A stretch of 64,000 nt of DNA from Arthrobacter sp. ERGS1:01 (GTDB lineage: Bacteria > Actinomycetota > Actinomycetes > Actinomycetales > Micrococcaceae), in assembly GCF_001281315.1 (NCBI RefSeq), contig NZ_CP012479.1, positions 1,922,001-1,986,000 on the forward strand, read 5' to 3'. The notes beneath the pieces were generated by a model. It was not told the origin of the DNA. It searched no databases and was given only the letters and a program-made list of their open reading frames with translations. Positions 7,528 to 10,212 of this stretch are shown in pieces. The translations under genes were made by a program, and so were the position numbers. The stretch's first letter is position 1. Each line of letters opens with the position of its first letter.

Positions 7528-10212
7528 ATGTGCGGAATCGCCGGTTACTACGGTTATGGGGAAGACGAAACTCTTCTGCAGGAGATGAACGCGTGCATTG
7601 TGCACCGCGGACCCGATGGTGAGGGTATCTACACCCAGGGGAACGTGGGGCTGGCACACCGCCGCCTCTCCATCATCGATGTTGCCCACGGCCAGGAACC
7701 CATGTTCAGCGCCGACGGCGAAACCGTGCTGGTGTACAACGGCGAGGTTTACAACTACCTGGACCTGCGCACCGAACTTGAGGCCCTGGGCCGGACGTTC
7801 TCCACCAAGTCCGACACCGAAGTGGTGCTGCAGTCCTACGAGGAGTGGGGCGACGCCGCCTTCGACAAGTTCAACGGCATGTTCGGCTTTGCCATCCACG
7901 ACCGGAAGAACAACCGCCTGGTCCTGGCCCGCGACCACTTCGGCATCAAGCCGCTGTACTACGCGACCTCGGGCACCACCGAGGCCCCCACGCTGTTGTT
8001 CGGCTCTGAAATCAAGCCGTTGCTTGCCGCCGGCAAGGCGGAGAAGAAGGTCAACGAGCGGATCCTCTACCGTTACCTGCAGTTCCGCATCCACGACGAG
8101 GAAGCGGAGACCTTCTTCGAGGGCATCCACAAGCTGATGCCCGGCGAGAAGCTCGTGCTGAACACGGTTGACACCGAAGCCGGCCCCGCCGGTACCGTCA
8201 CGATCAGCCCGTACACCCGCTTCAAGGAAGAACTGGCCGAACTGGCCAAAATCGAGACCCCGTACTCCAAGGCCGTCATCGAGGAATACCGGGAGCGGTT
8301 CACCGAAGGCGTGCGCCTGCGCCTGCAGTCCGAGGTGCCCGTGGGCACGGCCCTTTCCGGCGGCCTGGACTCCTCCGCCGTCGTCGCCACCATCAACAAG
8401 CTCATGAGCGAAAACGCCGCGGCCACCGATTCCCTCGGTGCCAAGCAGCAGACGTTCTCCGCGATTTTCCCGAACTCGATCAACGACGAGGAAAAGTACG
8501 CCGACGCCGTGCTGGCACGCTGCGAAGGCAACGTCATCAGCCACAAGATCCTCCCGCAGGCCTCCGAGTTCGTCGAAGACCTCGAGGACTTTGTGCGCAC
8601 CATGGAGGAGCCCATCATCTCCTCCGGCCCGTACGCCCAGTACCAGGTCATGCGCGAGGCCTCCAAGCACGTCACCGTGCTGCTGGACGGCCAGGGCGCC
8701 GATGAGATGATGGCCGGCTACATCCCCTACTACTTCGCCTACCTGCGCCAGCTGAAGAAGAACGGCCAGAACGGCAAGCTCGCCAAGGAGCTCATTTCCA
8801 GCTCCGACATCCTGTTCCGCTTGGCCCGGTTCCGCATCCAGGGCGCCCTGACGTTCAAGAAGGCCGCGGGGATCGCCCCGCTGCTGGATAAGAAATTCAC
8901 TGCCAAGTTCAAGGGCGAGAAGTTCTCCAACATCCCGGACAACTTGAAGCTGCGCCTCATCGACGACCTATTCCACAAGTCGCTGCCGGCCGTGCTGCGC
9001 TACGAGGACAAGAACACCATGCGCTTCTCCCTGGAGGGCCGCGTGCCGTTCCTGGACAAGGAAGTGGTCAAGTTCCTGTTCAGCCTCTCCGATGAGTCCA
9101 TCATCAAGGGCGGCTGGAACAAGCGGATCCTGCGCGACGCCACGCGCGATCTGCTGCCGGAGATGATCAGCAACCGCCGCAACAAGATCGGCTTCACCAC
9201 GCCGGAGGCCGAATGGTTCTCGCTAATGAAGGAGCGGATTTACGAAATCTTCCTCTCCTCCTCCTTCGAGGCACGCCCGTACTGGAACCAGGACGCCATC
9301 ATCTACGCGTTCGAGGAATACCTCAGCGGCAAGTCCGCCGGTTCCACCATGGTGTTCTGGCGCTTGCTCAACACCGAGCTGTGGCTGCGTGAATTCTTTG
9401 ACGTGCCGGAAGTCAAGGCCGGCATCGAAGGCAAGAGCGACTACATCCCCAACGCGGACAAGGAACTGGACATCACGGTTCCCGACAACGCCGGCACGTT
9501 CCGCCGCTACCCGTTGCGCACCGAGGTCTTCTACAAGGAAACCGACTTCGACCCGGCCATCATGGGCTATGTGAAGCGCTTCTTCGACGGCCTGCCCACT
9601 GCCGGCGGGGACCACGGCACCGCCACCGCAGACACCCCGTGGTACCTGTTCGTTTCGGAAAAGATCGTCGCCATGACCCAGGGCCGGTCCATCCCCGTCT
9701 GGGACATCAAGGTCTCCGGCGCCGCGCGCTTCTTCAGCAAGTTCGTCACCCGCAACCCGGGCGGCATCGGCCTGGCCAGCCCCTGGTCCATGCAGCTGGC
9801 CATCGATGAGGTGGGCCTGCCCCGCATCATGTACGCGTCCGCCCGCAGCGTGCTGGGCAAGCTCCAGGGCAAGTCCGGCGTGTTCTACGAAGTCGTTGGC
9901 CACAACATCAACGCGATCGACGGCGCGGCCGGCTACCAGGTAGGAACCTCCACCCACTCGGTGAAGTACGCTCCCCTGGACCCCGACGGCGTGGCAACGC
10001 GACTGAGCGCCCTGGTCCGCGAAACCGTGCCGGCCGAATACGCCGCGTCCTTCGCCGGCGTCGCCATCATGGACGCCAACGACCTTGGCGTGGTGGCCCT
10101 GGGCCACGACACCAAGCTGCCCAAGAACGTCCTGGAAAACATCTTCCGCGACAACCCGCAGGGCCAGACCACCGAGACCACTCCGATGTCACTGGTGTTC
10201 ACGCAGAAGTAG
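7528..10212 (+). CDS. asnB: Asparagine synthetase fused to a CofE-like (F420-0:glutamate ligase-like) domain
   Basis: The first about 640 residues form a glutamine-hydrolysing asparagine synthetase: Cys2 nucleophile (MCGIAGYYG), glutaminase domain with RRLSIIDV and YNGEVYNY, then the ATP-pyrophosphatase motif ALSGGLDSSA near residue 277 and LDGQGADEMMAGY. Usual AsnB proteins end near here. This protein continues to 894 residues: from about residue 650 it resembles the coenzyme F420-0:L-glutamate ligase fold (CofE family), with VSEKIVAMTQGR, GIGLASPWSMQLAIDEVG and AVALGHD-like segments. GAGG lies upstream of the ATG at 7528, but with a long spacing. The gene is divergent from pdxT. The amidotransferase assignment is firm; the CofE assignment is from motif recognition and its substrate is unknown. 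Confidence 0.88.
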   Translation: MCGIAGYYGYGEDETLLQEMNACIVHRGPDGEGIYTQGNVGLAHRRLSIIDVAHGQEPMFSADGETVLVYNGEVYNYLDLRTELEALGRTFSTKSDTEVVLQSYEEWGDAAFDKFNGMFGFAIHDRKNNRLVLARDHFGIKPLYYATSGTTEAPTLLFGSEIKPLLAAGKAEKKVNERILYRYLQFRIHDEEAETFFEGIHKLMPGEKLVLNTVDTEAGPAGTVTISPYTRFKEELAELAKIETPYSKAVIEEYRERFTEGVRLRLQSEVPVGTALSGGLDSSAVVATINKLMSENAAATDSLGAKQQTFSAIFPNSINDEEKYADAVLARCEGNVISHKILPQASEFVEDLEDFVRTMEEPIISSGPYAQYQVMREASKHVTVLLDGQGADEMMAGYIPYYFAYLRQLKKNGQNGKLAKELISSSDILFRLARFRIQGALTFKKAAGIAPLLDKKFTAKFKGEKFSNIPDNLKLRLIDDLFHKSLPAVLRYEDKNTMRFSLEGRVPFLDKEVVKFLFSLSDESIIKGGWNKRILRDATRDLLPEMISNRRNKIGFTTPEAEWFSLMKERIYEIFLSSSFEARPYWNQDAIIYAFEEYLSGKSAGSTMVFWRLLNTELWLREFFDVPEVKAGIEGKSDYIPNADKELDITVPDNAGTFRRYPLRTEVFYKETDFDPAIMGYVKRFFDGLPTAGGDHGTATADTPWYLFVSEKIVAMTQGRSIPVWDIKVSGAARFFSKFVTRNPGGIGLASPWSMQLAIDEVGLPRIMYASARSVLGKLQGKSGVFYEVVGHNINAIDGAAGYQVGTSTHSVKYAPLDPDGVATRLSALVRETVPAEYAASFAGVAIMDANDLGVVALGHDTKLPKNVLENIFRDNPQGQTTETTPMSLVFTQK

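Follow-up and report, generated by a model that had tools for sequence, protein, structure and literature searches.

Introduction

Glycine, glycine amide or alanine amide bound to D-glutamate (D-Glu) have been characters of peptidoglycan chemotaxonomy since about 1970, and modification of D-Glu affects cross-linking and Nod2 sensing; we know of no gene that has been assigned to this substitution. Among the closest described systems, LtsA, which is of the asparagine synthetase (AsnB) type, amidates a wall carboxyl on diaminopimelic acid. The alpha-carboxyl of the D-Glu of lipid II is amidated by MurT/GatD, of which MurT is the ligase half (PMC3266927). In CofE, GTP and divalent metal ions serve to activate a carboxylate, after which an amino group attacks the acyl phosphate, a mechanism that its authors liken to that of MurD (PMC10861534), and FolC2 (COG1478, Chlamydia CT611) is a precedent for a CofE homologue put to use outside the synthesis of F420 (PMC1971073). 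In the literature searched, nothing connected CofE-like proteins with lipid II or with AsnB. Here we describe a gene that fuses AsnB to a CofE-like domain, located at 7528..10212 on the forward strand of a 64,000-nucleotide stretch (the window; contig NZ_CP012479.1, positions 1,922,001 to 1,986,000) of Arthrobacter sp. ERGS1:01, a soil bacterium of the Micrococcaceae. On balance, and with some caution, we take its product to be a CofE-fold amide ligase that acts on a peptidoglycan precursor and joins a small amino acid to D-Glu, the AsnB half then amidating the product.

The Fusion Protein and Its CofE-Like Domain

The fusion gene is a single uninterrupted open reading frame of 894 amino acids plus stop, with a GAGG that resembles a ribosome-binding site (by eye) about 10 bases 5′ of its ATG. 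The encoded protein begins with a class II glutamine amidotransferase domain (residues 2-167, 7531..8028; PF13537 at 8e-45, PF13522 at 2.7e-42) that contains Cys2, HRR (44-46), NGE (71-73) and D96, followed by an Asn_synthase domain (residues 253-621, 8284..9390; PF00733 at 3e-64) with the PP-loop SGGLDSS (277-283), DGQGADE (387-393) and K532. The GATase_7 (PF13537) and Asn_synthase matches cover residues 44-621, and matches to the glutaminase and Asn_synthase domains of AsnB as a whole span residues 29-621. The asparagine synthase equivalog TIGR01536 is matched at residues 2-556 with 416.9 bits against a cut-off of 267.1 and, together with the amidotransferase and PP-loop residues, identifies this part as AsnB. 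A linker with approximate limits, set by those of the neighbouring domains (residues 622-649, 9391..9474), leads to the CofE-like domain (residues 650-894, 9475..10209), which is delineated by invariant columns, PF01996 matches in relatives and the predicted fold, and which carries the motifs SEKIVAMTQGR (710-720), GIGLASPWSM (746-755), IDG (797-799), DANDLG (849-854) and DNPQGQ (875-880). The first-pass annotation of this DNA had noticed an AsnB protein with an extra C-terminal domain, as is borne out by the single frame and by AsnB domains that end at residue 621; the two motifs it quoted from the C-terminal part are located at residues 709-720 and 746-763.

That annotation also took the extra domain to be CofE-like. 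Considered alone, the C-terminal ~245 residues match PF01996 (F420_ligase) weakly in a Pfam scan (E 0.0073; 16.3 bits, cut-off 25), no match was obtained in an NCBIfam scan of the CofE-like part or in a single-sequence PDB search with the domain, and profile searches returned weak CofE matches only. But PF01996 is matched at E <= 0.01 (best 4.9e-14) by 20 of the 20 members of an alignment (A1), among them the domain of the window, and the weak match is therefore not due to chance; the PF01996 cut-off is passed by the unfused L066 and by the fused L083 and L085, and missed by the fused L091 and by L087. With the predicted fold of the domain (predicted local distance difference test score 91.5), used as the query in place of the full-length model, strong PDB matches were to CofE only, at 20-21% identity in the structural alignment. 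As judged from this model, the C-terminal domain is a CofE fold, which upholds the earlier assignment. The invariant D of DANDLG aligns with the D of the CofE DTN motif, in a stretch without significance; since the profiles gave weak CofE matches only, the metal and GTP residues of CofE are not confidently mapped. The annotation had further remarked that the window holds no other F420 gene: examined by PF01996 only (CofC, CofD and CofGH were not searched), this extends to the whole source genome, where the fusion gene is the sole match and remains below the threshold.

Mutual Exclusion With MurT Within the Order

The strongest result is that the CofE-like domain and MurT exclude each other within the order. 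Among 149 genomes drawn from the family, 38 encode the CofE-like domain and 58 MurT, none having both, and the corresponding numbers in a draw of 297 genomes from the order are 37, 98 and none; with kinship ignored, the chance of zero overlap is 1.5e-10 for the family and 1.1e-7 for the order. A profile search with PF08353 (MurT_C) found no match in the source genome and none in the fusion protein. Within five genera the two genes alternate, the MurT matches being strong in g261, g276 and g324 and weak in g7 and g6; exactly one gene is found in 35 of the 38 genomes of g276 (CofE-like in 30, MurT in 5), and both in 0. Nine carriers in family f4 have a short frame only, without AsnB, and the exclusion thus follows the CofE-like part.

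The genome context points partly to the cell wall, neighbours having been named by eye from a simple gene caller except where confirmed with Pfam. L066 has an unfused AsnB (41% identity to that of the window) head to tail with a CofE-like gene (37%); their cluster also includes SepF and DivIVA, identified with Pfam, and genes that by eye resemble proC and yggT. A MurT_C protein gene is followed by a CofE-like gene on the same strand in L070, MurJ adjoins or lies near the CofE-like gene in L075, L078, L079, L081 and L082, and an alanine racemase gene is found two predicted genes from it in L068.

Conservation of the CofE-Like Half and Decay of the AsnB Half

An alignment (A3) comprises 64 of the fusion proteins found, picked by hand; each of the 64 keeps the four CofE-like motifs unaltered, and 11 of them form a diverged group with altered AsnB active-site motifs. 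Among 154 proteins with the long N-terminal part, all checked AsnB residues are kept in 124 and not in 30, where intact refers to C2, R45, E73, D96, SGGxDS, D392 and K532 only, so that the diverged-group rows P0188 and P0206 count as intact. Ala replaces E73 in P0138 (Renibacterium), and P0253 (Brachybacterium rhamnosum) retains 0 of the seven AsnB checks. The loss goes furthest in Micrococcus luteus, whose protein is 509 amino acids long, with AsnB down to fragments (by eye); a Pfam scan of it at E 0.01 matched no family, neither the AsnB domains nor PF01996, and its CofE-like domain was detected with the family profile. On a tree with 104 CofE-like domains as tips, 9 changes are needed for the label of AsnB loss, and well supported branches force 4 of them. 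The rows of this tree comprise every second intact protein (62, including P0001, P0164 and P0311), 16 of the 30 non-intact ones, 5 from Micrococcus, 5 partial and 16 standalone; of the 14 non-intact proteins left out, most deviate at a single residue or motif or lack an end. Judged from these alignments, selection keeps the CofE-like half, and the AsnB step seems dispensable because the AsnB half has decayed in several lineages.

A further position of interest is residue 878, close to the presumed active site, where the motif is DNPQGQ in 31 of the 64 fusions and DNPLGQ in the others, split by lineage; this difference might track the donor amino acid.

Proposed Function and Its Alternatives

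We infer the substrate, the donor amino acid, the order of the steps and the role of the AsnB half as follows. The CofE-like domain would act on a peptidoglycan precursor, most likely lipid II, by activating the alpha-carboxyl of D-Glu (position 2) with a nucleotide triphosphate, via an acyl phosphate and divalent metals as in CofE, and the activated carboxyl would be joined to glycine or, in some species, to alanine. The newly added residue would next have its own carboxyl amidated by the AsnB half, with glutamine as the source of ammonia; this half would decay where the end product is unamidated. The added residue would occupy the alpha-carboxyl and bar MurT/GatD from that position; the two systems, targeting the same carboxyl, would therefore replace each other. 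A peptidoglycan precursor, probably with glycine or alanine as donor, is favoured over F420-type glutamylation because there is no other PF01996 gene, because MurT is excluded within the order and because several neighbours are cell-wall genes. Thus, of the two-step amidation or glutamylation of one substrate suggested in the first-pass annotation, the coupling of amide-forming steps fits, since the unfused pair of L066 lies head to tail, and the glutamylation, if of the F420 type, is not favoured.

Published passages describe a glycine substituent on D-Glu in the wall of I. calvum (PMC3035309). This species has the fusion (P0178, P0185), with intact AsnB motifs in P0178, and the genome taken as that of I. 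calvum (G731) contains the CofE-like gene and no MurT match. In M. luteus, glycine on D-Glu, with ATP-dependent addition at the lipid stage, was reportedly found by Katz and others in 1967; Interschick and others are said to have described glycine amide in Sinomonas (Arthrobacter) atrocyanea in 1970, and Fiedler and Draxl, reportedly, D-alanine amide in Renibacterium in 1986. Each of these three genera includes carriers, for Sinomonas as judged at the level of the genus, and AsnB decay in Micrococcus agrees with its branch, reportedly free glycine. More tentatively, the gene could be that of the A2-type glycine branch: a two-headed protein whose CofE-like head ligates glycine or alanine to the D-Glu of lipid II and whose AsnB head amidates, AsnB loss in Micrococcus leaving free glycine, would then be the CofE-fold counterpart to MurT/GatD, and Patescibacteria and Clostridia would have its unfused homologues. 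If the proposed ligation to D-Glu is right, the type of D-Glu branch would be predictable from sequence, a cofactor-ligase fold would gain a role in wall synthesis, and many proteins labelled asparagine synthase would be misnamed or half-named. It would also provide a testable role for the CofE-like proteins of Patescibacteria, which as far as we know are not expected to make F420, and would put a gene behind a modification of the wall that has been known to chemists for decades.

Several points weigh against the ligation of a small amino acid to D-Glu followed by amidation. The MurT counts are uncorrected for phylogeny, neither gene is present in 53 of the 149 and 162 of the 297 genomes (by subtraction), MurT is matched weakly (3.5e-9 to 7.0e-6) in the 6 genomes concerned of family f4, and outside the order MurT also occurs in 3 of 22 carriers (G040, G110, G228), adjacent to the CofE-like gene in G110. 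MurJ and the CofE-like gene mostly converge and do not share one operon, and other unfused copies lie by non-wall genes, namely sigA (L067, L068), suf/nif-like genes (L069, L071) and dnaX (L072-L074), all by eye. In I. calvum glycine is reported, not glycine amide, despite the intact AsnB motifs, and what this source says of the species neither supports nor excludes amidation by the AsnB half (PMC3035309). I. calvum is also the one carrier for which substituted D-Glu was found in the literature searched (PMC3035309), and the Renibacterium passages of two reviews make no mention of a D-Glu substituent.

The AsnB half might itself be the working part, amidating D-Glu or another wall carboxyl in place of MurT/GatD, with the CofE-like domain confined to substrate binding or regulation. 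The checked AsnB residues, intact in the window and in the 124 long fusion proteins, and the AsnB encoded beside the CofE-like gene in L066 agree with this; we nevertheless consider it unlikely, as unfused CofE-like genes also exclude MurT, and as AsnB is diverged in the 11 fusions and nearly gone in Micrococcus while the CofE-like motifs are invariant in 64. It is distinctly unlikely that the CofE-like domain has another task in the wall (the first cross-bridge residue, teichoic acid or recycling) and that the MurT exclusion reflects the wall chemotype only: CofE-like/MurT switches within the five genera and the glycine on D-Glu of I. calvum (PMC3035309) argue against it. In its favour are the 3 of 22 distant carriers with MurT and the CofE-like domain together and the spread of carriers over genera that have different wall types.

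An asparagine synthetase of the housekeeping kind, its CofE-like tail being regulatory, would account for the TIGR01536 score well above cut-off and for the fusion being the only PF00733 gene in the genome, and yet is very unlikely. The genome has no AsnS above cut-off (GatCAB and AsnA were not searched), so that charging by that route makes no demand on free asparagine and, with this sole PF00733 gene, translation has no obvious need of the AsnB half; moreover, AsnB catalytic residues have been lost repeatedly while the tail is conserved, and the tail is also found alone. Finally, a cofactor glutamate ligase for F420 or for folate, FolC2-like as in Chlamydia CT611, is scarcely credible in spite of the PF01996 matches of relatives and the COG1478 precedent (PMC1971073), since FolC is present in the genome at 8.3e-101, which makes a FolC2 role unlikely, there is no other PF01996 gene, some neighbours are wall genes and MurT is excluded.

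Distribution and Other Features

A region search returned 480 proteins, and 107 of the 120 matches listed are 860-930 amino acids long; the named fusion carriers among the matches listed belong to genera of the Micrococcaceae and Intrasporangiaceae. An assembly artefact as source of the fusion is ruled out by this wide occurrence. The fusion had been proposed for a search in a genome set, and among the 38 carriers in the 149 family genomes, a single frame of at least 889 codons is indeed present in 36. The CofE-like domain was found in 8 of 8 sampled genomes of the same genus and, across the phylum, in 25 of 396 genomes. The gene yebC is located <= 5 kb upstream of the fusion, on the opposite strand, at 25 of 26 named loci.

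A complete AsnB-CofE-like fusion is also encoded by a Saccharibacteria protein (P0311) and a similar one by a protein of an unnamed contig (P0164), perhaps exchanged with actinobacterial hosts. L009, in a record titled Sporosarcina beigongshangi, is an Arthrobacter-like locus with 90% identity to the protein domain of the window and is probably a contamination. Other patescibacterial CofE-like domains (P0054, P0080, P0006) occur in proteins named HD domain-containing (Uhrbacteria) and redoxin-domain protein (Saccharimonadales). By eye, the CofE-like domain is preceded by TPR-type-looking repeats in L077, L079 and L082 (other Actinomycetota), and divergent CofE-like genes adjoin an aminotransferase gene, a phosphatase-like gene and dnaX in L072, L073 and L074.

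Between the fusion and pdxS, the window contains a GNAT acetyltransferase gene (10341..11039, forward strand; PF00583 at 1.2e-13), and 13 of 26 named related loci have a same-strand match to it 3′ of the fusion; it may have a functional tie to the fusion. Three consecutive tRNA-Ala(GGC) genes, each of 76 bases and with starts spaced 129 bases apart, lie at 59873-60206.

Comparison With Known Systems

The window protein shares with AsnB and LtsA both AsnB domains and their motifs; it differs by the added CofE-like domain, and catalytic residues have been lost in several fusion lineages. The motif GEGSDE of E. coli AsnB has a Glu, which we take to be E348, whereas DGQGADE of the window has Gln at this position (alignment to 1ct9), as do 53 of the 64 fusions. 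With CofE and the N-domain of FbiB (PF01996; PDB 2phn, 7uld) the protein shares the predicted fold of an F420-0:gamma-glutamyl ligase, but it is below the family cut-off, has its own conserved motifs and was seen in no F420 setting. Like FolC2 of Chlamydia, it would be a CofE homologue outside F420 synthesis; the source genome differs in having FolC, and MurT exclusion points to the wall. The target proposed for it is that of MurT/GatD, with which it is mutually exclusive within the order; MurT, however, is a Mur-ligase homologue that adds ammonia, whereas the window protein is without PF08353 and would add an amino acid.
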